The translations under genes and the position numbers were made by a program. Positions 15,014 to 48,756 of a stretch of DNA of 64,000 nucleotides are shown one piece after another. Positions within the stretch are counted from its first letter, which is position 1; the number at the start of each line of letters is the position of its first letter. Under the pieces are notes generated by a model, which saw only the letters and a list, made by a program, of their open reading frames with translations, did no database searches and had not been told where the DNA came from. The stretch comes from Tubiluchus corallicola (lineage: Eukaryota > Priapulida > Priapulimorpha > Priapulimorphida > Tubiluchidae): positions 186,001 through 250,000 of the forward strand of contig JAQGDQ010000033.1 in assembly GCA_030141605.1 (NCBI GenBank), given 5' to 3'.

Positions 15014-18000
15014 TTAGGAAGTGTCTTTCACTGGAAATTCCAATTTTCTTTCCAAAGAGTCAACAGGTCGACTAGAACTTTCACCAAACTGGTTTGTTTT
15101 GTTCTGAACGTTCTCATCTTTCAAGGTCTCTGCAGGCTTTTGCTTCTCCTTAGCTGCTTCAACATCTATTTTCCTCATTCGCACACGGGTTATTTGCCTT
15201 TTCATGTCCTCATCATCACCTATAGTGATGAGCAGAATACAAATGCCCTAGCACAAAAACAACTGACATCAGCTTGCTATGTAGATGAAAGTTTCAACAG
15301 ATTATTGCTAAGAATTGAATATTTACACTTCTGTTTACAATATTTTCTATCTAATTTAGAACAGTGTTTGAGTAATTTCAGTTAACAAAATTATAAGGTG
15401 AAAGAAACGCATGATTCGACTTCACAGTAAAACAGTATTTTAAAGTAATGGGAAACACAGAAGCAGTACTGATCAACGCACAACTTTAAAGGAGCATTGA
15501 GGTATTTTTACAAATATGAGGTTTTGTGATGTATCCACATCATATTATGACCTGATATGAGTGACTAATTCAAAAAGTTTAGTATTTTGTCAGCCTCTAA
15601 TGGATTTTCCTGTATTTTCATGAATTTTGGAGGCTTAAAGTGAGCTTTAACTTATAACCATCAAATGTTAAAAATTGCTGTTATAGTAAATCCATTTTTA
15701 GGAATATGTAGGCTGTTGTGTATAACCTCTAAAGCATAAAAAAGGCAACGTTATATTTACATGCTGTGCACTATGCAGTTATGGGTTCAAAGTATTACAC
15801 AGCAAATTATGGACAACAGAATGTAGCACTGTGACATTAATTAAAATGTTTAATTCTACTAATCTTCTTAAAACAGAAAAGCATTTATTTCATGAAAAAG
15901 TAAAGTGCTGCAAGTCTATATCAGGTCTTCAAAGAAAAAAAGTACTCACAAGTAAAACTAAATCTATACCATTTATAAATTCAAATTACCTGCAAAGTTA
16001 GCAAAGACATGAAGAAGTAGTGAAGCAGAGTTGAAGCTGTAACGAAGCCTTGGAAGCCCACCCACCAGGTAAAAAAAATCAGAGGTACCAAGGTTAAGAT
16101 ATACCTGAATGCATGCCTAGAAAAAAGCACAACATCATAAACACTAAAGGTACTTCTACAGTATGAGTTTGTAGACGTTAAATTTTAAATTTAATCCAGC
16201 TTTTGAGCAAGTTATGAATTTTGAATCCCACAATAGCTAATTGCATGAATAGTGACAAATAAATAGCAGTAACTGTGCTAAAATTGTTAGAGGAAAACAG
16301 TGCTGTAAAAGCTAAATTCTTTCTGATTAACTTAGTTCCTTACTAAGATAATGAAACAAATTTTCAGACAGTAGTAAATCTGACAACACCTAATTAAGAA
16401 AGGTGATTTTATAGTGTAAAGTTATAGATTTTTTACTTAAATTGAAATGTTTATCATTGAAACTGATAAATACACTGTTTTGATAAAAACGGACCTTCTG
16501 TAGTTTAACACTTCAAAATTACTTCAAAATTAAAAAAAATATTTAACGTTGAAAAATGGTATAATAATGCTGCTATGAAAAGATGCGTGTTATATTGCTA
16601 TTAATAACTTATTCATACATTTTCAAATATCAGACATATGACTGTAACTTGTAAGACTTACAAATCTTACTAGTTGGATCAACAGATTGAGACTGTAAAG
16701 ATATAAAGACTAACCTTGCCCATTTGACTTTGATGTCCTCAGGTAGTGCTTCTTTTAGTTTGCAAAACTTTAATGAGCAAGCCAGGATAAGGAAAAATTC
16801 GAGCTAGAAAAGTAAATTAGCATAGATTCACATACGCATGCACGCACGCACACACATAGTTAAATAGACAGATTAGTTACATATATATATATATATATAT
16901 ATATATGTTAATACCACAGGAAATGAAACTTGCTAAAGTTTTACTATACAAAAAAAAATTACAATCCTACCCACTTTTAGGTTACTGGTACAAACACAAA
17001 CACACTTTGGACATCACAGTCAGTACAAAAAGTTCTCTTTTAACGACACCTTGTTTAATGATATCAGCCTTTAATTATGTTTGTTGCACTCAGAAATCAC
17101 AGTAATAATTTGCCATATTAAGCAGTCAGATGCAGACATTTATAATTCATTGCTGGTCACTCACTAATTATTGAGACTTTCCCATATACAGATGGAATTC
17201 CTCTGATAAAATTCTCCATGTTACATTGCTGGGTTAATTATACTTGAGTTCACCTCGTTTGCATTTGGGTTGTCAGAAAAACAACACTATACACAAAAAA
17301 GTCTGCTAAACAGAAATGGCTGGTACTAAACAACTGCAGGAAACTTTTAAAAACACAGTATTGAAATAACTCTGGCAGAGAACAAACAAAAGTAAGACAT
17401 GATGTTACTAATGCTTTACAGTTCTAAAAAAACAAGCAGAGAAAGAATAGAAAGAAGAAGAAATGGAAGGAGAGCAATCAGGAGAGGAAAATACATGTAT
17501 TGAAGAAAGAAAACCTACGTTAAAAATTTCAAGTTTCGCTGTAAACTTTAGCTTTTTAGCTTTTACTTAAAAAATGTCACAAATAATTGCCACGTAGTGT
17601 TTGATTTATGAATCAATGCAACTGAAAGATTTTACACAGCCAGGTATTATTGATTTTTGTCTTCTCAGTGGTCGCTTTTACCTAGCCAAGTATTATTGAT
17701 CTTTGAGTTGGAAATGCGAAAAAATGCTTCTACATTAATTTCTATGGAAGGTACTGTTTCACATGAACGACATTTCCCTTAACGATGAATTTTGCTGGAA
17801 CACATTAACGTCCTTAAGCGAATACTGTCTATACATTAATTAACACCATCATTTAAACAGTGTACCACTTTATAACAAATTCAAAGCTGAATTGGCTCAG
17901 AACTGTGAATCTGACTAAAGCATGCAAAAACACAAAGCCCAGCCATCATGAAAAATTTAATAAATGTTACTACGACAAGTTTTTCACATAAAATATCAAC

Positions 18001-20116
18001 ACTAAAATCATTGCTCGATGATTTGAGTGATTTTTTTAATTGTTAAGCCATTTTTGTCAAAAATTGCCTTCTCAGCATAAAGCTAAATGTATCTTAAAGC
18101 AATTTAGCTGCTTGAGCCAAAACAGTTAATGTGCAAATGAATTAAAGAGCAAAATTAACCTTTTTAATGAGTTTCAGTCCACTCTGATAAAACTATTCAT
18201 TAAAAAACTTGCTTTCCAAAATTTGTCACTAAATTGTTTGGAAATGGTAACAAAAAATGAAAAACATTTTATGTCCTATTTAGTACTTACAATGGCCATA
18301 GAGGCAGCAGGTCCAATAAATGACAACAAGAATAGGCCACTTGAAATGAAGCAGCTGCAAAAAAACAGCAAAATGGCTTTTAAAACATAATGATTAAACA
18401 AGAATGCTGGTTTGTTCACTTGTCTGAATAACGAATGTTTCTTGCTTTCAATTTTTGGTGAAATGCCAAGAATACAGACCTAACGTAATTACTGTAATAA
18501 TTTCAGAAAAATGTCATTTAGATAACATTGTTTGCAGTAATAGTTTACATTACCTGAGATGCAAAACTATATCAAAACACAAAAAAAACATTTATTTATA
18601 TAAATCAAATATTGTTTTCTTGCTGGAGTTTTGCATCGGCATGTACTCATCCGATATTAATGTATAATGAATTAAACAGATATAGTTGCATTGTGCAGCT
18701 TATTCACTATGCCAGTTAACGTTTGCAGTTGTAACTATATAAAAATGCGAAGTGTATTTACTTACAGGTAATCACTTATAAAAATGCTGCGTTTAATTGC
18801 AACAGTAACCACGACAATTATCAATGGAAATCCCCAGCCAATTAGACTGGATATGATAGAAATACGAAGTCTTCTTGGCGAATTGTGAGCATAAAGAAAG
18901 ACGGTCATGACAATGCCAAAAACAAGCAGCCACGATATCACAGCAAGAAAAAAGTAATGGAGTAGAACAGCAGTTACAACACAACCCACCTACATTCAAA
19001 AAAAAATTATTTAAAAATTACGAGAGCACAGAGATGAACAATAATCAAATAGTCTTAGCATTTTTTTATATATAGTCCTGTGTTCTGCAAGCCTAGCTTG
19101 AAAGGGACAGTACTCAGTGGCAGATGGCAGGTTCTACTTAAAGTTAATAGTCGCAGCAGGACTTGAACCATCCCAATGTCATCTACTAAAATGAGACAAT
19201 GCACCAGCAAAAATGATTTGCACATTCAGGTATATACTTTGTCAAGGAGATAAATAACTGAGGATACTACAGCAGATGAAACTCCCAGGGATAGTTTTCT
19301 AGATAGTCACTCATTCATTTATTGATTAGGTTAGACAGTGCTTAACTTTTCCTTGATAAGCATATACTATGGGCACTCCGTTGTTCCCCTCATCGGATAA
19401 ATAAACTAATTGAAACCACATCTATGTAAACACTTCTAGCACTTCTAAAACAGAAAATGCGTAAGGCAGCAAATCGGCCATTCTTGCAAATTCAGCAGTT
19501 AAGTGAATTACGAGATTCAATTGTTTAATTACCAAATTAACCATAGTCAAATTACAAGTGGTTCAGTATAGTATTATTACCATTAATAATGATGATGACC
19601 AGACAGTGATAACAATGATGTAAAAATACATAGAACAACTAACTTTGTTATGAGTTGCTGTTATTCCTGCAAGAAATGTAATCTGTGCAACAAGAAGCGT
19701 GAAGCTCAAATTTTTTACAATGAAAGCTCTCACAGAAAGCATTTCCTGAGCCAAAGCATTCATCTGGTTACGACTCACACTACAAATAAAAAATGTAAGC
19801 AAGCTATCAAAATAAAGCGGACGGGCACTACGTAATTCAAAGTGCTATAGTATTTCAATGTTAAGTACATACCACGAAATTAAACCACTTTTATAAGATG
19901 TCCAAAAGTTAATGTACTTGCTAGTGCAAAATATTTAGAGAAAGTACTGACTTATTTGTCAAATTCCTTACCAAAAACATGTTAGTATAAGTATCGTTAC
20001 AAAAAGGCTGAAAATGGATATTGTCATAATGACAGCAGTAAAAACCTTCAAAGTTTTGAATGCTGTAAGCAATTCTATGTCTTCTACATCAGAGGTAGTC
20101 ACATCTAATGAGTCTT
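15014..20116 (-). other. Seven-transmembrane module of the receptor (adhesion/secretin GPCR type)
   Basis: Seven exons encode the bundle. TM1 is FTAVIMTISIFSLFVTILIL. TM2 follows IVKNLSFTLLVAQITFLAGI, matching the adhesion-GPCR pattern I.KNL...L...Q..FL.GI. TM3 is CVVTAVLLHYFFLAVISWLL, with the expected Cys and LHYF..A..SW. TM4 has IGWGFPLIIVVVTVAIK (family GWG.P). TM5 is CFISSGLFLLSFIGPAASMA (C...S.....FIGP). TM6 is FRYILTLVPLIFFTWWVGF. TM7 is LLHYFFMSLLTLQGICILLI, where LQG matches the family's SLQG. The tail is about 65 residues, Lys/Glu-rich and Ser-containing. All seven segments are present, so the module looks functional. The exon before TM1 has no C-x-W...HLT.F GPS sequence. Confidence 0.93.
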
Positions 20117-23100
20117 CTGAAATTACAAACATAAATAATGTTAGGCACTTCATAATTTGTGTACAAGTTAATATGTAGTTTGTATAGTCATAATCGTCAA
20201 CAGCATTAACAGGTTGTTGTATTTATTTATGGGGACCACCTACTTTATAAATTTGATCATATAAAAAATAGAAAAACATACATTTACTTATAACTGGACA
20301 ATTGTCAGAAAACTTTATAAATTCCTAGCTTGATTTTTTATAATTCAGGCAGGTCCTAGCCAGCTAAAGTCCTTTTCCATACCAAATTCACCCAATCTAA
20401 CCCACTATGCTCTATTTTAATCCACTCCACCCCAGTCTGATTAATTAATTGCAGGCTAATCCAAATTAATCAAGCCAAACTAGATCTTATCATCCTATAC
20501 AATGGATCCAGTCCAACTAGATCCTTTACAAATTACACTACAGCAGTTATTCGCACAAAGTCTCACACAGCCTATTTTCACACACGAAACCTAAAAGAAA
20601 GCATATATAAAATACATTTAAAGGCAATTAAAGTCAATTGATATAAGTGAATAGTTTTGTCTAAAAGCATATTCATTGTACAAAATACCTGTAGTTGATA
20701 ATGCCAAAGTCGAAGTCGTAACAAGTAACGCAGTAGTTGGCTCAGTTGACGCCATGGTTGTTTCTTTTACAGTAGATATTGCTTCAGTAGTATATGCAGT
20801 GGTCGTGGCAAGTTCTGTAATCGTTTCCAAAGTTGTTGTAGGTGGTCCTGTCATAGCATCAAAGCTAACATAATCTAACATTATTTAATCCAATCTATTA
20901 TATTCTATTCTTGTGTGCTAATTTATTCTAAGCTGGCCTGGCTCAAGTTAACCAAATCAGGTGTCGTTTAAACTCGACAAAATAAACGTCACTAAACATA
21001 ACTGAACATAAAATAATTCTATAAGTCAATCAACCAAGCATTACCTCCCATAACCTAACCACTCCAGGGAAATATACAATTCCAGCCTTCCCATTAAGTT
21101 TATAGGCATACCTAATAGATTTCAAGGACAGCAACTAGACTTTAAAGAAGTTAACCTTTTGAAGTTGATATTAAAAAGCCCAAACCAACTTACTTGCATG
21201 TGTAATTGAGCCCAAGGAAAGTGCTTACAAAATACAGTAGGCACCGCTTAATAGACTCACAAAGGGACCGAAGTGTCGTGACCCAATTAACCGATTGAAC
21301 TTATTAACCGATGGGTGTACCATTACTGGTATAGAAGTATAAGTCACCAGCTTATTATGCACTGCAAAAATTTTTAATGAATTTTATAAATGAAGTAATG
21401 CCTAAATTCCTTTGTACAGTTAAAAATTAGATAAAACATTTTAAAATATTAATTTATTTAAGTGAATTAGAAATAAATAAAAAAGTATATTTTCTAAATC
21501 ACACAATTACAAAAATTCCTTCAAAGACGGCTGCTTCATTTTATCGTGAAGAAAGTTGGCTCACAAAGTTCTCACAAAAATCTGTTGTTGTATGATGCAC
21601 AAATTCGTGTAAAATACTTACATACATCTCGTAAAAAATCCATGCTAGGGCTACTTAAACTATTGGTGGTGCCCGTGTTTCCTCGCAAGTAGCTTTGTCT
21701 GTAGTTTTGCCTAAGCTCCTGCTTGCTATAATTGTGATGCACTTACTGTACTGTACCTGCATCCCTGACATACCAGCAACATCTAACTGATTAAACGTTC
21801 TGACAAAGACAGCCAGAGCTTCAAAAGCAAACCGCTAAGCAAGTGATTCCATGTTTAGCTTCTAGCAATTCTTTTGTAACAAGGTTAATTGCAATGGACG
21901 GGCGAGTCAAAGGAAACCATTAGGCTAGCATATTAACATATGATAAATGTTCCTGCTTACAAATGAAAAGGTACTTAACATGATTGTTTCTATGTATATT
22001 ACAGGACAAAAGTGAACTAAGATGATATAAAAGTCGTAAAACCTTATTAGTCACACAAAAGTGTCTTACTGAAACATGTGAAGCAAAAATATTGAATCAA
22101 TTATGCGGAGCTATTTGAACCAATTACCGACAGTTTTTATGTACATTTGAATAGAAGCGGCTCATACCAGGCATTTATGAGTGAATTAAGAAAACGAGTC
22201 TATTAACCGTGAGTCTATTAAGCGGTTCCTACTGTACATCAGACGAGATTATGTTTAAGTTTCTTGCCATAAGAAAGAGTTATGTTTAAACAGCATATTT
22301 GTCTTACGGTATACAGTATACCTGTTGTAGATAATGCCAAAGTTGATGTTGTAATCAGTAACTCAGTAGAAAGTTCAGTTGACACTACAGTGGTTTCTTG
22401 CACAGTAGAAGTTAGCTCAGCAGTAGGCACAATGGTCACTTCAACTTCTGTAGTCATTTCCAGAGTTGTAGTTAATGGTTCAGTTGTCGTATCTTCTGTT
22501 GTTGGCTCCTGTGTGGTTGAAGGTGCTTTCGTTGTAACAGGTGTTGTTTGCTGTGTCGTTGTGATGACTTCTAGAGTGGTAGGTAATGCTGTGGTGCTAG
22601 GTAACGTTGTGGTATCCACTGTAGTAGTTTTAACTTTGGTTGTCATTTGCTCTGTGGTTATGACAGTTGTTGGTAGAACTGTTTCAGTGGTAGTTTCTAT
22701 TGTTGTAGATTGAACTGTAGTAACTGGCATGGAAGTTGTAAGAATTGCAGTTGTAGTTTCGATCTGTGTTGTCGGAGCGGGAGTAGTGACACTTTCCGTT
22801 GTTGTAACAGCAATTGTTGTTGTTGGTTCTATGGGCTCGCCAAATGTCGTTTTCATTTCAGTTGTACTCATCTTCGTAGTAGCTGTGGTAGTAGGAACTG
22901 TAGTTATTTCTGGTGTTGCTGGTATGACTGCTGTTGTTAAAGCAGTTGTTATTGGAACTGTAAAAGCAGTAAAGAAAGTGACAATTATTAATTTTAAAAC
23001 CTAAACTATACGAACATAAAATATGCCATTAAACATCTGCACTCCATTGCAACTACATAATTTTGACGCTCAAAATATTTTCAAAAGTTAGAAATCAGAA

Positions 23101-26100
23101 TCAGATTACACCATTTATAAGCACAAAAGGGCAATACCGATAATCTTGCTGATGTATCTTGTTAGCTTCATTGGTTCATATAATAATGCAGGCAAGTTCA
23201 ATGGCTTGTCATCACTAACATAAGACACCCATGGTACATCAACTGGTTTAGCAAGCATCCCTTTGTAACCAACAAACACGAAATCCTCTGAAAAAAATTG
23301 TGCAATGTGTTCTATTGTAGGAAAATAAACACAACCATAAAGATCAGCAGTGTAACACTAAATCATTCTGCTATGTCTTGGCATACTAAAAATTACGAAA
23401 TTGAAAAAACGATCGCAACCCCTCTAAAACTTAATGTGAGACATTGCCAAGGCTGAGACTGATAAACAGTTCAAGAAACATACAAGCCAACATATACAGA
23501 CAAAACTTTATCTAATTTCAACTCAGAGTGATCTAAAAAAACATTACAGTGGGCAATATAAAATTTTACTAAAATAATTTTTATGGATACAGAAAAGAAA
23601 TTAAAATATAAGACCTGGAACATTAGTTTGCAGTTTGTTGGTAGATTACACACATCAGTAATAACATAGCCATTGGCTGTAAATTTATAATCACGTAATC
23701 TTGCATAATTTAATTATCGAAGTTTTTCCACGACATTTAAAAAACTACTGAAAACATCAATGAGCTCATAAGGCAATTCTGTAATTACATGCTTGCAGAA
23801 AATGCCCGTGTGGCTTTCCAAGTAGTTCATGGAATAATTGAAATGTGTGCTTGCAAACCAATACCATCCATTAAGTCAGCATAGTCAAAACTACGTTATG
23901 ATGCTTCAAAGTAGAATGCATCAAAAATTTGGTCAAAAGCCAATTTTTTGCTTTTATAAAAACTAACACTAGCTTAATTGCCAACTTATGAACGATTTTG
24001 CTATGCAAGCACACAAATACTAAAACAACTCAACTGAGCACTGATAACTTTTGTGACGAGCATGCATCTAACAAACTATATAACAATATGAAGCAAACAG
24101 GCAAACAGTAGTCGCATGACACGAATGCACAACAAAACTATAGCATGCAAAAATATTATTTTCTTTTGTATAAAGTTAGATCAGACTGGCTGCACCGTAC
24201 GCATCACCACAGTAGTGTTGATTCTTGCAAAGTTTAATTGCCAAGACCTTAGACAATAAAAAACAGTATGTCAGTAAGACACAAACTGGCGTTAGTCTCA
24301 TTGCAGACCTTGTAACAGGCGATTCTATTTAATTTCGGAAAAAGCCTATGTTTTCCATTTCATACCTAACCCAACGGTGTCATTTAAAGGTGCTCCAAAT
24401 GACGACAATTGACTGAAGACTTTAGACTGTCTTGGCATGCTAAGAGAAATGCCCTCGCCAATCACTACAATTGCAGACTCGTCAGCAATGCTGTCTAAAT
24501 GCTTTTCAACGTCTAATTCTGTAGCCACATCAGCTTCTCCACATTCCATATTGTAAGTACGGCCAGGACTAGGCTAGAATAAAATACACTCACAATAAAA
24601 TACAAGAAATGAAGCAGCTATGTCCAAATAGTTTCATCATAATTTTACCAAATCATTTCAAATGGCTATAGATTGGCTCAATTTAACTTTTCACGATTAA
24701 AGGTAAACTATAATAACATCATATATTTCCATTCTTCCCAAGAACAAAATCTATTAACAGACCCCGCAAATGCTGTATCCTAAAAAATTGTCAATTAAAG
24801 AATTGGCACCAACTAAAGAATTACCTGTCCTGTATTCAAATCAATAGAAGAAATAAAAAAGCCACAGTCTAAGTGGCTTTCCCCATTAATCTCCAAAAAT
24901 CTTCCGTCAACTTTCACCATTGTGGTGGGCGGAACATTGCCAACAACTTCCACGTAAAATCCTAAAATACAAAAATTTAACAATATCAGAATTGTTTGTT
25001 AGCTTGTTGAGGATGGTCACAGAGGTTTTGGGTATTTAAAAAACTACAATCTTGGTATGACTGAGACTGTATCATTGCATTACACAATTCTTTGTTCACT
25101 AAACTTGGTTGTTATTTCATAAAAAAACCCTATCAAATCATTATAGACTGAACCATATCAGTTTTTACTTTTCACGCTTGATAAATGATCGGTTCGCTCT
25201 GACAGCACAAAATAGTAAAAATAATTCATCTTCACTTATTGTCAAATAGATAGGGTGACAAAAAAATCGTTAAAAGCTAACAATACATAAAATGTTGCAG
25301 CAGGTACAAAATTGTACAGAAATAAAAACAAGTGATACATGGTTTTTTAGTCAAAAATTGTTCTCTTCCCTCAAATAAAAGATCAGAAAATTTAGGGTGT
25401 ACCTTTGGTCAACTGCTCACGTATCATGTAAAGTAAGATAGAGGCATTATAGCCCTCAACAAAACATGGCTGATCATCATTTGCCGAAATCAGAGTTCCA
25501 CAGGAATGAATAGAATTAGATGCAGAAACAGTAAGAATCCTAGGAAAGTACAAGATGCGCACAATTTAGTAAAAAATTGGCAGTAGAAGTGTTTTTAAGC
25601 ATAAAGGTTTTTAACAACTTGTTGCGGGAATAGCTGAAAAGTCAAGGAATGTGCTTTGCAACCGAAGTTAAGAATAATATTAAGGCTAGTCAGAGGCTGA
25701 TGGATGATCGCTGGACTCAATACTCATTCTGTGTGGTTTCATACAACATACTGATTTTGGCTGTTTACTTGGTAGAGAGAAGGTGTATTCACATTCAAAG
25801 GTTGTAAAGACACCTCTGCTGGTACATCTTAGAGGTATGTACAACCTCGTAATGAGATAGGTTCTGGTCTCACCACAACCCCATTGAGTAGGCCTGTAGT
25901 TGAATACTGGATTCTGGCTTGTATTAATGTTACCGACAAAAGTGTACAAACATTATTTTAAGCGAGTAATTAGTTATTTATGTGTAACGGAGAAATGAAA
26001 CCAAAATTAAGGAAAAACACAAGTGACGTGCTTTAAACTTTTTTAGTTGTAACAAACCTTTCTTCCGGATCAGATTGTGGTATCCAGGGTAATCTATCAT

Positions 26101-29100
26101 CGATATTTGGAGACACTTGACCCCAGCTACCATAAACAGTCTCTCTAATTATGCCGTTGGTTTGAGAGTCATCAGCAGAGGTCAGTGTGTAACCATGTGG
26201 AGCTCTCCACTTTGCTCCGAAATGTGAATCCTCATCGTATGCCTCTAATCTATACTGAAGTAACAAATGTAATCAATGAATCAATACAAGGCAATGTTTG
26301 AAGTGTTTGAAGACCAAAAAAATTTAAAGAAGTATTTGAGAGCAAAGGCTAGAAGAAGTTTTAGATTTAAATTACAAAGGTTATTTGCAACAACAACAGC
26401 AGCAGCAACAGCAAAAACAGCAATGATAACATTTTTCTTCTGTATCATTACCATAAAAATATTTATAATATTTATAATTTATAATTGTTATTATTAATAC
26501 TTGCTTTGAGAGGAAAAACATCTATATCTATTTTTCACACCTAATGCTATTCGTGACTATCTTTAGCCATAATTAACAGTTTACTAAACAGTAATTCCTA
26601 CTAAAAAAACAGAAATCACACAAAAATAATTTAATCAGCTATGAGGTAGTAGCTGAAAAGATAGTTCCTTCATAGACTACAGTGTATTTAATTAATAGAT
26701 ATAAACATTAAAGTAAGTGCTTGCTTACGACTGTCCAGGGCTTGTCTAAAAAATCACAAGTGACTTATACCAGCAGTAACTAATTAACATGAATCATGAG
26801 CAGTTATCATTAAGTACTACAGTAAGGCACACTGTTGACTTAGCAATTCCAGCAGTTCTACAAATTTTTAAAATGCTGCAGTAGCATTATTGCAGTTCAT
26901 CTGGTTTGAAAGTTTTGTTGTAATTAAATCATTTAAATTACTTGCATCCTATACAAATATACCTAGAATTTACAATAACTCCACTTTTTTATTTTTTGAG
27001 AACTTTCATTTTTATAAAAGACAATCATACGGAAGATGATTTCCTATTCTGTGTTTATATACATAAACATTTTATTATGCAACTTACTTCAAAATATGTA
27101 GGCTTTGCTAAATGTAAAATCATTTCTCCATTTACAAAGGAGGGCAGCTGCATAACATCATTTGTTCTTAACGAAGGCATTGCCGGTGTTGTTATGCTCA
27201 AAACTGTCCAACCACCACCTACAAATATAGTATGAGATGGTAATCAGCATGACTCATTAAGAGCAGCTGTTAATGTGTGCCACACAAATGAGTGATCTAT
27301 GCTACTGAAGAGGTACGCGAAAAAATGTTACTGTGACCACTTCAGTGGTCATCTAATTAGGTGACATATTATCAGTGTTATAGTTAGTCTGCATATAAGA
27401 GGCAAGATCTTGTAGTAAATTAGCATTGTACTGCAAAATTCCTTTGAAAAAACTTTGGAATTGTATGAAAGTTCAAGACCTTGATTTTCTTAATATGACA
27501 CGCCGATGGAAAAGGTGCTTATGAAAGTCGTTTCTTTCATAACTATCCAATATTGATGTCAAAATCTTTTTTGTTTTTTTCTTCAATTTAATTGATTAAA
27601 TGTACAATCGAAGAAGGGATACGAAAAAGCAACCAAGTAGTGGAAGTCATCATTTGCGAGATGATACTGAAAAAAATTGTAAGAAATTAAGCTGATAAGA
27701 AAAGGCATCAGTGTTACTTTGAAAAAAAAGGCAGGCATCATAAGCAACTCAGGCAGTAATCCAAAACTGCCACTTAATCTTGGCAACACAGAACATCTGA
27801 TTTTTTTCCCTGACTGCACCAGTAACACACTGCCTGTTTACCTTTCTGTAAATGACAATATACTGTGCATTATTAATTAAGGTAAGAAAATCAGCTGTAT
27901 TATTAAAGATAACAAAGTGGCTTAAATAATAATGTCATAAGAATGACAAGTGGCAGCGTCATTAATGCTGATAAACATCTAATCTAGTTAACCTAATTTG
28001 AAACCCATGGGTACAATTACTGCAACAGTAAGTGAAATTATTCAATATGTGTCATGGAACAAAGATAATACATAACAAAATTACTGAACGCACCTTCCTG
28101 TGCCAGATCACAGATAAAATATGTGTCAGTTACATTAGAGTGAAAGACTGGTTGATCCAAAATTGTTGGCACTGGTACTTTTCTATACTGAAACTAAAAT
28201 GAGTTAAGTGACTTATGTTACAAAACAGTAGCAGATAAAGAGCTGGTACTCACTCTGTTGTTAGTTCATTCACCTAGGAGTGCTTAGGCCTTATTGTGTG
28301 CTTGGAAAACATACTTAAATTTGTAAAGAAAAAATAGCTCTCCTTTTATTCTTATGATCAAATACTTGTATCAAAACGAAAATGAATAAAAACTGGCAAT
28401 AATAATTCAGAAAAGAAAAAAATATGATAGCAAGCATACGAAAAGTGCTGATTTCAAATATTTCTTATTCGGTCGTAATTTCAGAGTTAGCCTTGATTAG
28501 AGAAATCATATTAATTAATTACAAAAAACTAAATGTAAACAACATAACTACATACCAATGTTGTTATTTCATGACATGACACAGCTTCACAAGAAACAAA
28601 TGAACATCCTTCATCAGCAAACATGGAACCACTACAATGCAAATCTGCTCTCAATCTGGATGGTAGAGCAGTTGGAGTGCTGCAATAGCGAACCTTTGTT
28701 ATAGGAACCCTACCCTCGCAAGAGCATTCTTCGAAGGGTTGATGAAGATCAAACCACTTTGTCCATAAGCCTTTCCTATCAGCTGAAATTTCAATACACT
28801 CATTTAACTTTTTACAATTGACAAAAAAAATACTAAATACTGCCTTATTAATTTTGTTAAAAAGTTAAAAAGGACATTGCTTTTCTGTTTAACTATTGGC
28901 TTGCTCGCAAATTGTGCTATAGTAATTTGCTTCTTCAAGAATATTTAACTATATAAGTCAAATAGTTTTTAGCCCTAAAAACAAAGATATTTGCTATGTT
29001 GATGAGATAACCTGTATGTCCTTGGAAGTGGCATCAAGAGGCTGAGCAGCTAGTCTTGCTTTCTCCCTACTTCACTTCCTACTTCCTACTTCATAAAAGA

Positions 29101-32100
29101 TTTTCAATGACACATTTTCTAGACTTATATAAAGCAATTTGATAAAAAAGATTTTTACATGTCTCCCAAAAATTTGGAGGAGAGAAGTAATAACACATTG
29201 AGGATCCCAGGTTATCTATTTGTTACAGAATGGTTTGCTAAACTAACTGCTAACTCAAACAAAGTTCCATTATTTTTCATCTCAAATGCATATGAAATTG
29301 CTAACAGAACAGTGAAAAACAAATCAAGTAACTACTGATCCTTATTAATGTAACACTAGCAAAGGCCCCGCAAAAAATTTTGCATATAAATACACTTATA
29401 CTCAAAAATACACGAACGTCCTACATAGTCCTCATTCATAATGCAAAGCCAATAGCAGCTTTTACTGAATTAAAGTTACAAGGTTATAAGCAGAGTATAA
29501 TGGATGATGTCAGAACACTGGCTTTGTGTCAGCAGTTTTCCAAGCAAAAATTGCCAAATTTGGAACATTTAATTAACTCCTCGCTACTCCTCTTGGTAGA
29601 TGTGTCCTAAAATATAGCCTACATTATCGTGTAGCTCTGTTCTTCCTCTTTCTAAAGACCCGCATATCTCCTTCCAAGAGTCACACTAAGCGCTGCTAGA
29701 ACGCTTTTCCGCATGCTGTTTGGTCAAAATTTCGAAAAAATCGCGAGCTGGGTCCGGGAAAGTTGCGGGACGCCGTGGCTCTCTCGCAAATTCTAAATAC
29801 GCCTACTACACCCACCACTGAATGGGCTATCTATTCATGGCTGGCACTGCCCCCGACCCATTCCCGTTCTCCAGAAATCAGAGGTATAAGTTTTGCAAAA
29901 AAACGGCCGAAAAATGGCCAGTTTGGAGGTTTTTCGCCCCCCATTCCTCCCGATGGGCCCGATTCGAAAAATAAACCCCAATGGCACGACACTAGATCGC
30001 GACCTTTCGTTTGATGTATAGATCGGCGCAAATGGTGCCACCGTCGAAGCTGCAGCCTCGAATCTTATATATATATATATATATATATATACCAGCGAAA
30101 TTAATATATACGATAACAGAATTAATATAATTCAATATAAGAAAGTGGATTACTTGGTTTACAGCTACCATCTGGCAGAGGAGTTCCATGACAATCAATA
30201 TACCGCACTTCGCCTGGGTGACAGTCCGTATTACCATTAGTGAAAAATACTTTACTGTATTGATGTTCAGTTATTTCAGTGAATACACAGAAAGTACTGG
30301 CATACTTTTCTAAATCCACGCATATTTTGGAAACATCTGCACTTTGAAAACACAAGTTGCGCCATTCAGCTGAAAACAGTAAAAACGGACTGAAAGCAGC
30401 AATTCAAACTGTGACATGATAATGCAGTATAACGCAACGTAATGCTTGTGCAATCTGGAATGATATTTTGGTGTAAAGTTTGAAATATTTAGTAGAAGTT
30501 AGCAGGAAGTACTACTAGCGATGTTGTTTTAACTGTCATTACATCTTTTCCAGTGTGCAGAACAGTATTAACATTTCAGAAACATTTAACGAACAACACA
30601 ACATTATATTCCAAGTTTATGTTATATATGTAATCTCATTAATAGCGCTCTTTCTGTGCTGAGGGTTTGAATATCGTCCACAAATTTGTAAAATTAAAAT
30701 CCAATGATGATCTAACTAATGTATATATATGACTAATAAATTACAAATAAACAAACGATCATCAAAAAAACATTGAAACATAGATATACAAGGACAGACT
30801 GAATAGTTTCACTCCCTTCACAGTATCAAGAAACTTCGTGTACACTGAACATTCATAAATTCATCATAGAGTCATGTGCACTCAATTTGAACAAATCTGT
30901 CTAACTAGCTTAAAACCATCCTGACCCTAACAGTTTATTATAAACTACCTCAAACTATATCAATCTAAATGTATTGCATCAAAGACATCCACTCCTCAAT
31001 AAAGTTTTGGATTCATTCAAGATTTATTGAAGATTTAACAAGTTAGTGTGCTGAAAAAATAAAAAAGCAACGAAAAGCATTAAAAAGAATAATATTTATT
31101 GATGCCAACAGTAAATTCTAAGACAAATACTCAAACAGAAAATAAAATTTGAATAGAAAAGCTAAAATTCTTATCTGTTGTTTTTATCTACTAACCTGAC
31201 AGATCGAGTCGATACTGCAATACACCTTTATAACCCCCTTCATATAGTCTCTGTAATAAAGTGCCATCATCTAACAAAAAGAAATTAAACGACATTATTA
31301 TCTCATAGAATCTGATCCTTATTTCCTATTTAAGACCTTACATTTTTTAACACTAACCACAGAAATTTGAGAATTTTAAGTTACGTTCATTTCCAGTCCA
31401 ATAACAATTATGCATGTGAGTAGAAAGGACTACATTAGTTCTGCGATGTATGAATTTTGTTTCCTTCTCTTTGAATTTGGTTGTCATCGGATTACACCAC
31501 GCGTGTCTGATAAACTTATAATAGGTAACAATAAATATACCAATATAATGTAGCATATCATAAAACCTACCAATATCTTTTGTGGATTGTTCCAAACTAG
31601 TTAAGCGGATGGCATTTTTAGCTCCAGCCTTATAAAAACCATCTACTTGTTCCTTGGTAAATATCAAGCTTCCATGTGAGTTCAACACGCACAATAATAG
31701 TATCGGTACAATAATTATTAAGAAATCCTAAAAGAAATAAAGTTTAATTTCATTTTTAGTAAGAGCTAAATGTAAAAAAAAATTGGAATAACTTTTTTTA
31801 GTCTTTCCATTCTATTTGACTTTATCGAGTACCAACCACTTGACAAAATGATAACCTTTTTAACATGGTCTCATCTAGTTTCTTTAAATTGATAGATATT
31901 ACAAGCACACAGAAGTTAACTCTCTTTACGTGATCATTACAAAGTTCAATGCCGAGATGCAAATGGTTAATTCAATAACATGTATACATGTACATATAAA
32001 CATACCAACATACATTTTGCAAAAAATGTGTTTCAAGTGTCCTTGTATTTGTTAAAAACGCTCTTAAATATTCTCCATTTTACACTCATCACACATTTTA

Positions 32101-32229
32101 CATTAGAAACAGTTCTTCATTACAAGTTTTATAAGATCTTTAGAAATGTGATAAAATCTTTTCTTGTTATGAAATCAGACAAGTAAAAGCAAAATAGGCT
32201 TAAAAAAGTTATTCAGTCAGCCATACCAT
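15014..32229 (-). CDS. Adhesion-type 7TM receptor with TSP1-like, fibrinogen-like, ILEI/FAM3-like and mucin ectodomain
   Basis: Predicted cell-surface receptor of roughly 1200-1250 residues; its ligand is unknown. Exons (-): 31727-31571, 31270-31196, 30369-30154, 28782-28556, 28193-28094, 27218-27088, 26254-26058, about 25893 onward, 25539-25403, 24961-24825, 24573-24366, 23287-23138, 22957-22322, 20874-20689, 20116-19972, 19773-19644, 18989-18766, 18354-18291, 16803-16715, 16116-15990, 15247-15014 (stop). Phases agree except around the 25893 exon, whose donor I could not place. The 31727 exon opens with a signal peptide (FLIIIVPILLLCVL), so the start Met must lie at the end of an upstream exon. 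Two ATG|gtatg candidates fit: 32227-32229 (used here) and 33354-33356. The donor at 30153 is weak. Order: TSP1-like Cys-rich region, GGGWT motif, ILEI-like domain, two Thr-rich exons, 7TM, short charged tail. No GPS cleavage motif is visible. Confidence 0.85.
19075..19265 (-). mobile_element. Possible tRNA-derived SINE fragment
   Basis: On the - strand a GGTTCAAGTCCTGCTGCGAC block (about 19149-19168) matches the RNA polymerase III B-box and T-arm pattern of tRNA-derived SINEs. It is preceded by GCTGGTGCATTGTCTCATTT, which resembles a degraded tRNA 5' half. It lies in an intron between TM2 and TM3 exons. No poly-A tail or target duplication was identified, so this is tentative. Confidence 0.4.
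20689..22957 (-). other. Mucin-like Thr-rich stalk of the receptor: two related exons
   Basis: Exon 22957-22322 (212 codons) and exon 20874-20689 (62 codons) encode almost only Thr, Ser, Pro, Val, Glu and Ala, the composition of an O-glycosylated stalk. The smaller exon resembles the 3' part of the larger one in nucleotide and protein sequence. Both end in a TTSTLALSTTG-type sequence at a phase-1 donor, indicating exon duplication. The stalk sits directly between the ILEI-like domain and TM1, where other adhesion GPCRs carry GAIN/GPS. Confidence 0.9.
21235..22234 (-). mobile_element. pogo/Tigger-type DNA transposon remnant, 1000 bp, with TA target duplication
   Basis: Terminal inverted repeats of about 26 bp start CAGTAGG[C/A]ACCGCTTAA at each end, and the element is flanked by TA on both sides (21233-21234, 22235-22236), as expected for Tc1/mariner-superfamily pogo elements. 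A copy in opposite orientation lies at 45594-46422. The - strand contains MKQPSLKEFL followed by stop near 21520-21555, resembling the PIP-box-like QxxLxxFF end of pogo transposases. The body is otherwise AT-rich with no long ORF, so the element is non-autonomous or decayed. It sits in the intron between the two mucin exons. Confidence 0.85.
23138..24961 (-). other. ILEI/FAM3-type domain of the receptor
   Basis: Three exons (24961-24825, 24573-24366, 23287-23138) read as one domain. It starts FYVEVVGN, then has CGFFISSIDLNTGQ, then ELDVEKHLDSIADESAIVVI, then LSSFGA and DFVFVGYKGM. This follows the ILEI (FAM3, TMEM2, CEMIP, POMGNT1) layout: G.N..V.D..TG, a helix before a D..IV... strand, a helix with a LG/FG turn, and a closing F.GYKG strand. 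Members of this family bind carbohydrate or act as secreted cytokine-like proteins. The call is by pattern only and would need a profile search. Confidence 0.72.
27088..28782 (-). other. TSP1-like and fibrinogen/intelectin-like segments of the receptor
   Basis: Exon 28782-28556 encodes GLWTKWFD, CSCEGRVPITKVRYCSTP and a Cys-rich ending, fitting a thrombospondin type 1 repeat (W..W, C..G...R.R.C) in a variant form. The next exons read YFICDLAQEGGGWTVLSI, which matches the N-terminal CD....GGGWT motif of fibrinogen-related and intelectin-type domains. The following exon (26254-26058) continues with YRLEAYDED..FGAKWRAPHG, but I cannot trace a full fibrinogen fold. Exon 30369-30154 upstream is also Cys-rich and may hold another partial TSP1-like unit. 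Confidence 0.55.
29640..30066. mobile_element. GC-rich inserted element ending in an (AT)n run
   Basis: This intronic block is strikingly richer in G+C than the surrounding sequence (runs such as ttttcgccccccattcctcc and gccgtggctctctcgc). It ends directly in a (TA)n microsatellite at about 30066-30091, a tail arrangement often seen for short non-autonomous elements. It has no coding potential that I recognise; open frames here are short and compositionally biased. Likely a SINE-like or other short mobile element, family unknown. Confidence 0.5.
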
Positions 32230-34210: not shown

Positions 34211-37200
34211 ATGGTAAGGTAAATTACAACTTTTGAATCCATATCTTGTACCTTGCACAAATATTAATTAACCTTCTTATCACTCAGCAACTTTCATTCT
34301 CACTTCACTGTGCTGCATTGAACATAAGTGCCAATTTTAGAAAAGTGTTTTTTGTGTTTTGCAATCTCTAGAGTTTATATTAAAAAATGCTATAATGTGA
34401 TGAATTTAAATGATACAAAAACATAAGTGCTTGTGATGCAGCTAAAAAACTATGTTCGCATTGCCTGTAAGACGCCAAAATGGAAAAACACCATTGCTGC
34501 TTAAACTCAGGTTATTAACTTTAATAAAACGCTGAACAATATTAAAAAGATAAAAGTTGCGTGCTTCCATAAAAATATCAATTTTTGCATAATAAAACAA
34601 AAAGGTGCATCTTATTTATTATAGATTTATGCTTACCCTGTTTATAACAGTCATAAGAATATCACAAACACATTTGTCAGGAATTGGAGGCACATACAGA
34701 ATTTCAAAGTTTTACTACTGAATTTCTTCAATGAAAAAAATCTATTTAAATGTATTTAAGGCATTCTAAAAGTACTTAAACGATCACAGTATGGCTTAAT
34801 AAGTAATTCTGATGATAATTTGTTTTTGCAGGTAACCTGCGAATATCCATTCTGTGTTGTCTTAGTATGTGCCGGCTTATTTGCAACAACTAATTCCTGG
34901 TCAGGTAGGTTATCAGAAAACTTATTAATTTAGCGAAACATAACACAGTCCAATGAAAAACAATGCTTAACATTTGTTTGTTCACATTCATTCCTGTCTG
35001 CACAAAGTTTTGTAATTCATGCTTTGTTATAAATTTCTACAACCTATTCTCAACCTATTGCAAAACAATATGCTAAACAACGTAAACAATGCATGTGTTT
35101 TATACAGATATTGAAGACGAGGCTATAGATGTACCAATAACATTCCTGACATATGACGAACAAATTACCTTATTAAAGGTAAAATTACATACTTTCATAC
35201 ACAGTGTTGTTAAAGTATTTCTCAAAAGGTATAGAACTGATAGGCATTTACATGTTTTACCTGCTATTTAATTCACAACACAAAGCAAAGTAATTTTACT
35301 GAGCGAAAATCAGAGGACAAAATGTACTCAGCCAGGGCTGGATTACTGCAAGGGCTGGATTAGGCCAAGTAGGCCCGAGCCAAAGACCCCATGCCCACAG
35401 GCCTAACAGGCCACTGCATAGCCCCTTACAACTAATATTCCCTACTTTTTCAACAGTTATATCACAGTGAGAAAACAGCAAAAATGAAGAATTTTTTTTG
35501 AATAGCACTGGTAACGTAAAAGAGTAATTTGAAAAAAAAACAGGAAACATGGAATACCTTGTCTAACTTGGATTTGAACTAGAAACTTTTAAGCTTATAG
35601 GTACTACCAGTATTTCTTAGTTCACATTTGCTTTTCTCCACCAGACATTAAGTGACTCAAATTTAATAACTGGTCGTAACGAGTTAATTCTATCAATGAT
35701 AACCTTTAAGTTAATATTATATTACTTACAAATTACAACGTATTTTTCTATGAGTACTTATGAACAGTAATGTGATCGAATTTATTGCAGAGGTGCCATT
35801 AAAAAAACCTTTTTACCAAATAAGCACTTTATATGTGTTTAGCAGACATTTCTAGTTAAATTATGGTCCCGACAAAACAACCAAATCGAAAGCTAGTGGA
35901 ATTGGTGAAAACCTCTGATGTAATTAATCACTAAATACATGTACATCTACAGGAAGCTTAAACTAAATACTCATGATACCATCTATTCAGATTATTCAGA
36001 AATATTAAAATTCATGATTAAAGCTTCTAAAAAATTCTAAAAAACAGAAAATAAATGTCTTTCAGGCCTACACTCCTGGACGGTATTGGGAGAAATTTGT
36101 ACTCAGCTATTTTTACAAAATTAGAGAAAAGTAATAAATAAACAAATATACTTGATTATTTGAAAGGCATAATGTAACATCAGTATCTAACTTTCGCAAC
36201 AGATAAAATTCAACATTTTCAAATTCTTGTTAATAGGAAAACTCGTTTATATGCATTTCTGACAGCACCTTTGGAAAACCAAGAACTAAAAGTTTTAGAA
36301 ACATATGAAGCCCAAATTCAATAAAGTACATTAAATTTGATCTTTAAGCCAAGGAATCAATGTATTTATTATTAGTAAATCGTTGCAAAGTTAACTGCTG
36401 ATCTCGGACATTAACATGAACATTTGCCATTTGCTAGATTTATGCAGGAAGTGGCTATGACATTTTCAAACTATGGAACAACAATATAGCACTTAATGGA
36501 GACAGCGAATTAGGACTTAAAGGAAATCTATACAAATCAGAGTTGGCTAACATTTGGAATGACATCGACGAGGTATAAAAGAAAAAATAAGATGAAGAGT
36601 TTTCATATAGCTTGGAATAGTAATGTGACTGACTTGTTAATCTTTTTCAACCACCAGTGCAAAAGAAAGATATACATGTGTATAGAGTTCTAGCTTATGA
36701 AGACATGGGCAATTATTATTTATTGCACACATATAGTTCTATAATGCACCAAAAATGGCTTCTTTATAAGAATATCACAACACTGAGTAATTATTTGACA
36801 TGTCTGCGGAACTACTTCACCAAGAACTTCTCTGTGACAACTGGTGGCAGAGAATAATGTACTAAGTCTGCATTTCTGGAAAAATATACTATGCTTCCGT
36901 AGTTCCCTTGAGTAATTCATAGTTTTTACAACCTTTGCTGCAAACTTAGTCAAGTTATTGTTCCAACAACCTTCAAGTGACAGAAAGTAAAACAATTGTC
37001 ATTGTACAGTGTAACAGTTGGTACTACTACCATATTGGTAATATCAAAAAACTATATTTTTTTAGAGAGACCCGCTACTACACGCAACGTTTTCACTTAC
37101 AGGTCATGCTGACAGTTTACAGCGAAGCAGGGACTGTTTTGCTCAAGGTTATTTTTGATGCATGGGGAGAAGACAAAACGTCTTGGTTTTCTGAACAGCA

Positions 37201-40200
37201 CGTAAGGAAAGTGGAAGTTCAGACATTCGAAGAAAATATTTCCAAGCTAGATAAAGTAGAAAAATTAAAAGATACAGCATTTTCTATGCAGGGGTAAGTG
37301 ACTAAGTGCTGTGTTCCTGGAAAAGTTGGCTGGTTTCACATACGAAATGGTTACAATTTTTTTTGGAAAGTATGAGTTTTACATATAAGTACTTTGATTG
37401 GCCCTTTGTGGTACAATTCTCATACAAAAAAATCATTTACATTTTTGGTTGCGATTATGAATGAACGATCTGAATAAATAAATATCTCAAATTCTGTTTC
37501 TTTTTTGTACAATTTATATACTGATTGTAATCAATATCCATGTGACAAAAAATTCTTTTCGTGTGAAGCAGTTTATCTTACCCTGTTCGATATTAGGTTC
37601 GCCAAAACTTAAAAAGGGTTGTAAATTGTAGTGAACTCACAACCATGTGCATGCTATCAGCACAAATGAAATTAAAATCCTAGTCTACAAAATCTTATAG
37701 AATAATTAAACCAGTCTTTTGCACCAGAAGATACAGTGCAAAAATTCCATATTCCAAAAGTCCTTTTCAATACAGTTGGAAGTTGAAGCTTATCTGCTGT
37801 CAGATGAACTGCTTTTAGGTTTTAATACCTTTATTGCATAATCCAGGCAAACATCTAACAGAAATTTCGTCATAGCCACAAAAGAAGATGGATGTTTTGT
37901 TTCGGGGAAGAGTTTTGCATTTGTAGTATCACAAGCACCTACCGGTCATACATGTGAATGGGAACAACCTTATAATTCTGCATATCCAAGTTTCCACCTT
38001 TTGGCAGCTATTGAAGATGAACAAGAAGCTGGTAATATGAATGGTAGTGCAAGTAAGTAAAACTAAAACTTTATTTGTTGTTCATTACAGCATGTTCTGT
38101 TCAATGATGAACTAATTACATGTTAACAACATTCTATACTGTCAACAAATTATTTGCATTATTTTTACCAACTATTTATACATTTTTCTAATACAGAAAA
38201 GCAAAATAAGAAGTATTTAAAAATAATATGTAATCATCACCTGAAGTTACTTTTTCATCAAGAAATAATTTGTAAAGTTAGATTGAGCATATAATGTACA
38301 AAAAATTATTTGCACATTGATATACACAGGTTTTAAGCTGAATGTGTTATTATCTTTGTCACTATCAGACAAAAATTGAGTTGTTGCCTTCCAAGTGCAA
38401 CTATAAAAAGTAAAGAGAAGTCGTAGGCTGTAAGATTCACATGTAAATATGTCTTAATTAAATAAAAGAAATGAACCATTAATAATTGTTGTTACAACAC
38501 AAAATTTGCACAATAGGCATATGAAAGTTTTTACTATCAGAAGTGTTTATAACAATGAAAAGGAATGGATAAAAAGCGACAAAATCAAGAGACAGCATTT
38601 AATTTCGAGTGAAGAACATCTATTTTAATATCTAATACTGCCACTATTTGCAGCTTTATGGGATATAATGTTGACAAAGTACAAATCACATTAGTTTCTT
38701 AATGGGAATAGTGTCATGTTAAACTCATTTCTTGAAAAACTTTGTTGACTTTTTTATTTCTGGCAATAAAAAGTGAAAAGAACTCTAAAAAACTGATTAA
38801 ATAAAAGTAATATAAGGATTAAATGGCAAATAAGTTGATACCTACTTGTAATAACTTTTAAGGGCTATCATTTCCTAACACAGGGCTATCATTTCCTAAC
38901 ACCCTGCAAATGCTAAACAGTTGATTTCTTTGCAGCTAACTATTTACAAGGGTATCTCCTGGAAATTTCTGCAAGACGACAATTAGGTAAGAAACTAAAC
39001 TATGTATTTTACAAGGCACCAGCTTAAATATCTTAAAAATTACAAAGCTTACTATCAAGGTCAAGGAAGACTTTTTAGCTCAGCAACTAGAATCATTATT
39101 TTAATAATTTGAAACAGAATGCACGGCCTGCGTAATGAATAAAGTCAATAATTCTTGCAAAAAGCAAGTTGAATCTACGCAAATCTCTTGCCACAAAAAA
39201 CATAATAGATGAAAGAGTGTAGCACAGAAAGTAAACAATTTGTATTACCTGTCCTATAACTAGTAGTCCAAATTATCATTAAACCATTTGGCACCTGTTA
39301 GACAACAAAAAATGAATGTCAAATAATTTATTAATCATTTAATGATAATCATATATGACCAAGGCCCTTACTTATAGATGTTTTGTTTTGACAGTTAGAG
39401 CAACAACAGACATTCTTGAGATAATGCCAATAACGGACATTACAGCAAAATACCACAACAGATTTTTGGCGCAGGTTACAGGTAAAGAGACAATTCTATA
39501 TGGCACAGATGCAAAACAGATTAAGTGGAGTACTTCTACTGCATACTTTCCAGAGAACAAACTTATTGAACCAAAAGGCTTATATGAACAGTATATTCAG
39601 TTTGACTTGTGGACACTAACAGAGGTAAGTGTGCAAATAATATAAGCATCTTTTGCCAAGTGTGTAAAAATTGTAGTTTACAAACAACAGTTGAAATACA
39701 AAATACAAAAAAATCTTCAAAAAACACTGATAAACTTTAAACTAATAAATGAAAAGATTGTATATCCTCTTTTTACTGCCATGCCAGCTTTAGTCAGTAT
39801 TCCGTAATCGAAGTGCAGTTTGCTACTGCAGTACGTCTATAAACATAAATGTGTTTTAAATGCAAAATATTTTTCGGTGCTTTGCAATTTAATAGAAATG
39901 CATTGAAAAATTACACTAATTATTAATAATGATCCTTGCCACATTTACAGTGCAAATAAAAATAACTCACATCAATTATCACTTTCTATCAATACTATTT
40001 GCTGCCTGGCATGACCAATTGTTGATTTGACAACACGCTAACTAATTACATATAATAATAATTTCAACTGATACTATTATAAACTTGCTGTTGCTGAGAT
40101 TTTCAAGTAGCACTATCGTAGTTTAAATGATTCATGTTGCTACTTAAGGTGCTTCCAAATACTCTTTTCTATAAAACAGAAAAGTGGAAATAATAATTGA

Positions 40201-43200
40201 TGCATATGTCACTCGCACAAACTTTACAGGAAGGCCAAACCACTTTTTCCAAAAATCTCATTTTTACATTCTGGTTAATCTGGTCTCTGGTTGGACAATA
40301 CTGGCATTCTCAGTTAATTGTTACACTGAATTTCAGGGCTGATTAAAAACACTAGGCCTCTTTCTGTTTTATGTCAGACAAATATTTTACAAAAGTATCA
40401 ATACATTAAATTCAGTATCACTAACATCATGTTACCAGAAATTTTCCTACAAAATAGAATACGTTTTTAAGCTCCTGCCAAGTTTAACACATATGGCTAT
40501 AAATTTGAACATGAACTATAATTCTTTGTAATTTTACAATTATTCTAGATAGTTGGGTTTTCAAGCAGAGGTTTTGCTGGACATTGGACAACTCATTACC
40601 TTGTGAAATTCTTCACTCCAGATGGATACTTCAAAATGGTAAGAAAAAAAGCATTGTGAAATATATCAATCAAACGCATTATCACTCTGTTAAAACTTGT
40701 AACAATACTGCAAATGCTACAACTTAGACTGTCTATCTAGCTTAACCTGTGCACTTCACATCAGCTCAGCTTAACAATGTTTGACATTAAATAATACAGT
40801 AGAACATTAAAGCGTTCATGCCAGAGATATTGCTGCAAGTAAAATAATCTTTGATACAGTAATATTGAAAAATTAGACATTGTAGACTGTAGTTGTGAGA
40901 CAAAACTAAGAGACAGTAACAATGCCAGGTATGATAGTGTGCACTATGAGGCAAATTGACAAGACAGTATTACACATAATACAGGATTGTTAAAACATTC
41001 CTACACATTACAGCTGCAAAGTTTCACAGGGCTGAATGAACTACTGCTTTCCACACACTCTCCAACTCGCAACAGCAGGACTCACCTAATGCTTTACCTT
41101 ATGGAAAGACTAAAGCCTATAACATTAGCAAAGATAACACTCTAAGCACAGGCACCGAACAGGTAGAGGAATAAATCTAGCTAAGAAACTAAATAGCTGT
41201 GCGCAGTATGACAGACAGGGTTTTGAGAAAAGATCTTCATTAGAAATCATATTGGCTGCAATTTACAATATCTTTAAATCTGCCTTTAGGAATTATCAAG
41301 CAACACAGATGACACCAATGAAAAAATACGCTATTTCACTCCAGTAGTAGCAAAGAAGCTGAGAATAACACCACTTGCAGCCATTAACAACCCTAATTTA
41401 TATCCACTACTGAGCATGAAGATTCACAGAGGCTCTGGTATGTATCAGCAAACATTGAGCTTTTAAATTGAAAAAATAAAATTAGTTGTTAATTTTTCAT
41501 TGCCGCATTAGCTCAAAAACATGCTCCCAAAGTAATACTTCCATTCCATTCCACTAATTAGCAATGAAAAAACAGTCCAAAAGCAATAAGTGATATGTCA
41601 TACACTGGAAATGTAAGAAAATGTATGACGTCAAAGACAAATGTCACTCTTGATTTGAATGCCAAGTGTTTTAAATACAAATCATTAAGGCAATTTACAT
41701 TGATAAAGCCGTATAAGTGAAACGTGTTGTAAAATTATCAGCTTTGATTCTGAATAAATTTTTTTTTTGTTAAAAACGATTTCGAATAATATCATTACCG
41801 GATTCATGTGTGTGTTTTCTAATACGTGTACTGAAGCGCGTTTTCTTACTGAAAAGTCTATTTCAAAAACTTGTATGTATAGTAAATGAGTTGTGAAAAC
41901 TAGCAGCCAACTTCCCACATTAAATTTCAGAACCATAGTTATTATTGTGCCAATAAAAGAATATAAAAAAGTAACGATCATACCTGAAGCAGAAGGCAAG
42001 CATAAAAGGACATGACGATTTTCGACTATTTCAAAACAACAAATTTAATGAACTACTTTCAATAGTCACAGCATAAAATTATTAAAAACTTTGTTGCTGT
42101 ACCTATAGAGGGTGTATCTGGTCGTATTCGCACTCCAGCCATCTGTGCAGGTGATCCACTTGACTTGAAGTGTCCGGAGGGCAGTGTACTTATTAACATT
42201 CAAATAATCACTACAAAAGACACAAAGGGGGCTATGTGTCCAAAACAAACTAGAAAAAGAAGGGATGTGGAATCATCACCAGAAGAATCAGAAAACAACT
42301 ACAACGGGTGGCGAAGCTGTGAAATTGAAAAACTTCCAATGCTACTAGAAGATCACCTTTCAGACACTTGTAATGGTAGGAAACAAGTACTACATTTTTT
42401 AATAAAGAATGCCTTAAACGTATACAAAACACATTTTAAATATTTAGACAAAGAAGGCTGATATTACATAAAAGGAGGATGCACTAGAAAATATTTTGAC
42501 TGAACACAAACAATTGTTCCTCAAGACAAACAAACACAGCAGACAACACAGCTATTACAGATAACGTAATGCTGGTGGTTTAATCTTGTGAAAAAAATCT
42601 AGTTTCTTTTCAGAGACAGTTTGTGTTTCACAGATAATTTTGCAAAATCGGCATATTATTAATATAATGTATCAAAAACCAACTAAATGCAAGCATCAGT
42701 CATTTGTACATGAAAACAAAAGTATAACAGTGTATAAATTTCTCCACTTAAAAGCAAATTATTTAAAAAGGTTAGCTGTTCATATACTTACCCGGGCCGT
42801 ACAAGACACGTATGGTTCACAGATAATGAGTAAATCCTATTTTTCGTAGATGTCCATGATTGTAGCATTACTGCATCAGGAATATCTGAGTTTGAAAAAA
42901 ACACATTTTGTTACAATGGAGGATTTTATCACCGCGCTTATTACACATGTGAACTGAAAGGTGTGTATCATTATTATTTTCAATGTCGAAATGAACACCA
43001 TTAGTCTAAACATATTTTCAACTACCTCTGATGGTAATGAAGTATATTTTATGCATTTTTCAATTCAGATCAAAGTGAATGGACCTTGTGGGGATCGTGG
43101 AGTCCATGTAACGTAGAATGTGGAACAGGATACAGTTTCCGAACTAAATACTGTATTGACGAAAATAAAGACAGCAGTTCTTGTTTAGAAGAAGGAGTGC

Positions 43201-48479: not shown

Positions 48480-48756
48480 GTAAGTATTTCAAGGTAACAA
48501 CAACCTGCAGTATACTACATTAAAAGGTAATAAAAGTAATTCTAGTTTAATGCCCATCTAAGCAACAGTTTGCAGGAAAATTGTTAAAGGTAATATGCCA
48601 ATTTTATCTAATGCATTTCCAATTTAAAGTTGTGTGCCAAGAATTTAAAATTGATGACTGATTGATTGAATTGCCCGAGATTTTCAATTTTGGCAATAGT
48701 ACAAATCTAAGTTAAACACAACTCAACTAGTACAAAGGTAAGTATTATTTAACGCA

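Follow-up and report, generated by a model that had tools for sequence, protein, structure and literature searches.

Can a receptor of the adhesion lineage join a large ectodomain to its seven-transmembrane (7TM) domain without a GPS between the two? The question is raised by a locus of Tubiluchus corallicola in a stretch of 64,000 nucleotides, referred to here as the window (C2043:186001-250000 of a 343.5 Mb genome), whose positions serve as coordinates throughout. The reading that we favour, with moderate confidence, is that of a single-copy, intact gene encoding a class B2-type 7TM domain which has lost GAIN/GPS and which carries a GGGWT and ILEI-like ectodomain on a Thr-rich stalk. An earlier note on the same DNA had described such a receptor; its GPS-less adhesion-type 7TM domain, mucin stalk and ILEI-like module fit the data, but the TSP1 and fibrinogen labels that it gave to other parts of the ectodomain fail in profile searches.

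Gene structure

Twenty coding exons lie on the minus strand between positions 31727 and 15014, all with AG acceptors, GT donors and consistent phases, and join into a single uninterrupted frame of 1176 codons and a stop. The consistent reading phase across ectodomain and 7TM exons noticed earlier is thereby borne out, and the junction near 25.7 kb, which had been left open, is settled as a direct, in-frame splice from E7 (ending at 26058 in phase 2) into E8 (starting at 25539). The locus is free of N and gaps, with a GC content of 0.40 in the exons and 0.32 in the introns. Our guess at the start codon is an ATG at 32229, which is followed immediately by a GT donor and fits the phase of E1; joined to E1 it gives M-DFLIIIVPILLLCVLNSHG, which resembles a signal peptide. 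Residues are numbered from the first residue of E1, leaving out this Met. From strand, order and phase we infer that the ectodomain and 7TM exons belong to one transcript. The features are as follows, all on the minus strand:

32227..32229, minus: candidate start codon ATG, GT donor directly after it, in phase with E1
31571..31727, minus: E1, signal-peptide-like start of the ectodomain (DFLIIIVPILLLCVLNSHG...)
31196..31270, minus: E2, N-terminal ectodomain, no family match
30154..30369, minus: E3, Cys-rich N-terminal region, no family match
28556..28782, minus: E4, Cys-rich, called TSP1-like in the earlier note, no Pfam TSP_1 match
28094..28193, minus: E5, leads into the GGGWT module (YFICDLAQE)
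27088..27218, minus: E6, GGGWT motif, fibrinogen-like by motif only
26058..26254, minus: E7, GGGWT module continued
25421..25539, minus: E8, end of the GGGWT module, spliced directly to E7
24825..24961, minus: E9, N-terminal part of the ILEI-like domain
24366..24573, minus: E10, middle of the ILEI-like domain
23138..23287, minus: E11, C-terminal part of the ILEI-like domain (FVFVGYKG)
22322..22957, minus: E12, Thr-rich stalk, 212 aa
20689..20847, minus: E13, Thr-rich stalk continued, duplicated from the 3' end of E12
19972..20116, minus: E14, linker EDSLDVTTSDVEDIELLTAF and TM1, no GPS
19644..19779, minus: E15, TM2
18766..18989, minus: E16, TM3 to TM4
18291..18354, minus: E17, ECL2 and start of TM5
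16715..16803, minus: E18, TM5 and ICL3
15990..16116, minus: E19, TM6 to TM7
15014..15247, minus: E20, end of TM7, cytoplasmic tail and stop

A further candidate exon at about 23680 (NGYVITDVCNLPTNC) was rejected, because the phase in which it ends would disrupt E11. Neither the Rfam nor the tRNA scan gave a match in the window.

The transmembrane domain

The 7TM domain is of class B2 type, that is, of the adhesion lineage. Residues 858-1103 match Pfam 7tm_2 with E = 5.5e-22 and 78.7 bits, where the cut-off is 20.6, and the best PDB sequence matches are the adhesion GPCRs ADGRL3 (9.5e-19) and ADGRF1 (2.4e-18), in agreement with the full adhesion-type bundle first read from the sequence. The domain was aligned with six receptors of this genome that carry a GPS and with ADGRL3 and ADGRF1. 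Of 14 columns that do not vary in the references, the window gene agrees at 13, the TM3 cysteine among them, and departs at one, where Met has become Leu952; the ECL2 cysteine is retained as well. Among other changes, the usual Glu of TM3 is replaced by Phe955, a Glu which ADGRF1 and the receptor on contig C1372 also lack, and the Asn of TM7 by Leu1096. The Trp that follows the ECL2 Cys in the references (CWL) is Phe1008 in the window gene, a change that could follow from the loss of docking by a tethered agonist.

In the 7TM tree, the window gene joins the GPS-bearing receptor on C1372 (L028, G000:C1372:1-9000), its closest 7TM relative there, with support of 92/91, on a long branch (2.77) that leaves the placement unsure. 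The two are 57% identical over a 35-aa stretch of TM2. By eye, the exon borders HNK|VGC and TLQ|GIC appear to be matched in at least one GPS-bearing receptor, that on C562. A separate group in the tree is formed by L025 (C1732), L036, L038, L039 and L040, class B receptors whose entire 7TM domain lies in one intronless open frame. An identical short 7tm_2 match of equal score and frame length occurs on C1752, C1831, C1974, C2072, C2074 and C2107 and is a repeated or duplicated fragment.

Absence of a detectable GAIN/GPS module

A canonical adhesion GPCR requires a GAIN domain with a GPS next to TM1, and none was found in the window gene, while GPS is detectable elsewhere in the genome: a Pfam GPS search of the genome returned 21 matches, none of them in the window. 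With a local profile built from nine of the genome's GPS exons, nothing on the strand and span of the gene rose above noise (best 5.7 bits, E 3.8). The same profile recovers two GPS exons with E-values of 1e-19 to 1e-21, both of which were in its seed, making them a weak positive control. Both searches thus uphold the observation that the exon leading into TM1 lacks a GPS.

The alternative of a canonical adhesion GPCR, with GAIN/GPS exons that escaped detection through divergence or alternative splicing, would accord with the finding that nearly all human adhesion GPCRs have a GAIN domain (PMC8421042), and intron 12 (1474 bp) and intron 13 (572 bp) would offer room for it. We regard this as very unlikely, as neither profile finds a GPS-like stretch on the strand of the gene, several exons would be needed for a normal-sized GAIN domain, and intron 12 (22321-20848) consists mostly of a transposon-like element of roughly 1 kb (21233-22236) whose inverted ends, each of 28 bp, lie at 21233-21260 and 22209-22236. 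Partial copies of this element lie at 45591-46427 and 48758-48902, in and near a neighbouring gene described below.

Because the nearest 7TM relative, on C1372, has a GPS, loss is the simpler history; on this one uncertain branch, it is likelier that the GPS was lost in the window gene than that it was never present. If the gene model is right, loss of autoproteolysis follows.

The stalk and the limits of the gene

E12 and E13 together encode 265 aa, of which 108 (41%) are Thr, bearing out the Thr-rich stalk proposed earlier; from its composition, the stalk is probably O-glycosylated in the manner of mucins. The stalk has lengthened by exon duplication, since E13, together with its donor and the beginning of the following intron, copies the end of E12 at 71-73%. 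Provided that all exons belong to a single transcript, about 850 aa precede TM1, so that the ectodomain is large and its stalk rich in Ser/Thr, as is expected of an adhesion GPCR.

The locus could also hold two genes, one for an ILEI-like/mucin protein, secreted or anchored (E1-E13 with a last exon of its own), and the other for a 7TM receptor whose N-terminus is short. This receptor would start from the ATG at 20153, which is in frame ahead of E14, has an A at -3 and is followed by a hydrophobic, signal-like stretch, MKCLTLFMFVIS, and then by EDSLDVTT; among sponge class B receptors, GPS-less forms with short N-termini are reported (PMC4302439). However, this stretch coincides with the acceptor tract of E14, whose richness in T would yield hydrophobic residues in translation anyway, the phases of E13 and E14 match, and the search for a terminal exon of the first gene found only read-through stops. 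Mucin-like stalks beside the 7TM domain are also typical of adhesion GPCRs (PMC8421042). We consider two genes unlikely and continue with the single gene of 20 exons.

The ectodomain

E9-E11 as a divergent ILEI/FAM3-like domain is a reading that is more probably right than wrong. Pfam ILEI (PF15711) matches the window protein with 16.3-16.9 bits (E = 0.009-0.014), below the cut-off of 27. The best match (16.9 bits, E = 0.0093) nevertheless spans positions 2-89 of the 90 in the model, so that the whole model is aligned. Its E-value was computed over 24,736 Pfam models, and the match can be taken as a test of a single model because ILEI had been named before any search. An hhalign comparison of E9-E11 with ILEI gave P = 0.0058 over 88 columns with the domain ends in register, at a probability of only 6%. 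By eye, the first exon border of E9-E11 is near the place where an ILEI gene of the same genome has its own.

It is somewhat unlikely, in our estimate, that the gene encodes a GPS-less adhesion-type receptor in which E9-E11 is something other than an ILEI domain. Such a reading would explain the score under the cut-off, and E9-E11 did not rise above noise with two small HMMER profiles made in-house from PDB FAM3 and POMGnT1 and from ILEI sequences of the genome. It would also explain the replacement of binding residues. In POMGnT1, sugar is bound by Arg129, Asp179 and Arg207 (PMC9802357); in the alignment, Arg129 corresponds to Cys440 and Arg207 to Glu523 of the window domain, while Asp179 falls ambiguously on Gly492 or Glu493, so that at least two of the three are replaced. 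Against it stand the match treated as a single-model test, its coverage of the whole model and the similar position, judged by eye, of the first exon border. With the ILEI-like reading retained, the replacement of the Arg129 and Arg207 equivalents weakens the glycan-binding role that the earlier note had suggested for the module, and sugar binding appears less likely here than in POMGnT1 or FAM3C.

The ILEI domain, aligned here over its full length, is known from the FAM3 cytokines, the stem domain of POMGnT1 and cell surface hyaluronidase (TMEM2), none of which, unlike the product of the window gene, is a GPCR. Elsewhere in the genome, ILEI exons with a PDB match of 4.6e-29 occur at L019 (G000:C1246:44500-54400), likely a POMGNT1 orthologue, and at L020 (C1699) and L023 (C2017) ILEI exons lie, by eye, near C-type-lectin-like exons.

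The labels given to the more N-terminal exons fared less well. Searched alone, E3-E4 had no Pfam TSP_1 match up to E = 10, and the same tool detected TSP1 in the neighbouring gene at 8.9e-8; the TSP1-like label is unsupported. For E5-E8 the GGGWT motif is present and is the sole ground for calling the module fibrinogen-like, as these exons alone had neither a Pfam Fibrinogen_C match up to E = 10 nor a PDB sequence match.

No close paralogue of the ectodomain was found in the genome besides the gene itself, and none of its sequence is homologous to the neighbouring candidate gene, which is arranged divergently on the plus strand (36950-48523). That candidate has a lectin-like exon at 42066-42461, which by eye resembles SUEL and has no match in Pfam, a genuine TSP1 exon at 43041-43298 (the Pfam match of 8.9e-8) and a 480-aa Thr-rich open reading frame at 47081-48523; no 7tm_2 match was found beside it.

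Relation to known receptors

The latrophilins (ADGRL3) and ADGRF1, which provide the nearest 7TM sequences of known structure, differ from the window gene in having GAIN/GPS and other ectodomains. The C1372 receptor, nearest in the tree, differs in its GPS exon; no ectodomain was found between this exon and the start of the contig, and it lies past the contig end or was not recognised.

GPS-less adhesion receptors are already known. ADGRA1 (GPR123) has an adhesion-family 7TM domain but no GAIN domain and hence no tethered agonist (PMC8421042); it shares the absence of GAIN with the window gene but is listed without extracellular domains (PMC8421042), in contrast to the large ectodomain and Thr-rich stalk found here. 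In the sponge Amphimedon queenslandica, 12 of 40 class B receptors are reported to lack GPS, some of them with short N-termini, and the accessible text mentions no ILEI-like or GGGWT ectodomain on them, a difference from the window gene (PMC4302439). In a literature search of partial coverage, no description of an ILEI domain on a GPCR was found. The window gene is thus of the adhesion lineage by its 7TM domain, like ADGRA1, and is not a canonical adhesion GPCR with GAIN/GPS. To call it an unusual receptor class, as was done earlier, overstates the case, as the gene is present in a single copy and its nearest relative by 7TM carries a GPS: it is an unusual combination of domains, not a new kind of receptor.

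Proposed mechanism and significance

In the model that we propose, the ectodomain would consist of a Cys-rich N-terminal region, the GGGWT module and the divergent ILEI/FAM3-like domain, carried on the Thr-rich, probably O-glycosylated stalk from which a short acidic linker would lead into TM1. In the likeliest mechanism, the ectodomain would bind a partner in the matrix or on a cell surface at some distance from the membrane; the stalk would relay this binding, or tension, to the 7TM domain without cleavage, or it would hold the ectodomain in position while the 7TM domain signals at a basal or ligand-set level. As predicted from the gene model, the receptor would work without self-cleavage or a tethered agonist. 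That the ILEI/FAM3-like module on its mucin stalk has replaced GAIN in this receptor lineage, and controls the 7TM domain through partner binding or stalk tension with neither autoproteolysis nor a tethered agonist, is a tentative proposal which we think possible but doubtful.

A precedent for function that needs neither element is BAI3 (ADGRB3), whose physiological work is possible without tethered agonist or GAIN although BAI3 itself has both (PMC13322242). If confirmed, the window gene would be a natural receptor of the adhesion lineage with a large ectodomain and no GAIN/GPS, and would offer a useful test of how signalling proceeds in the absence of a tethered agonist, which the work on BAI3 has made a sharper question (PMC13322242).
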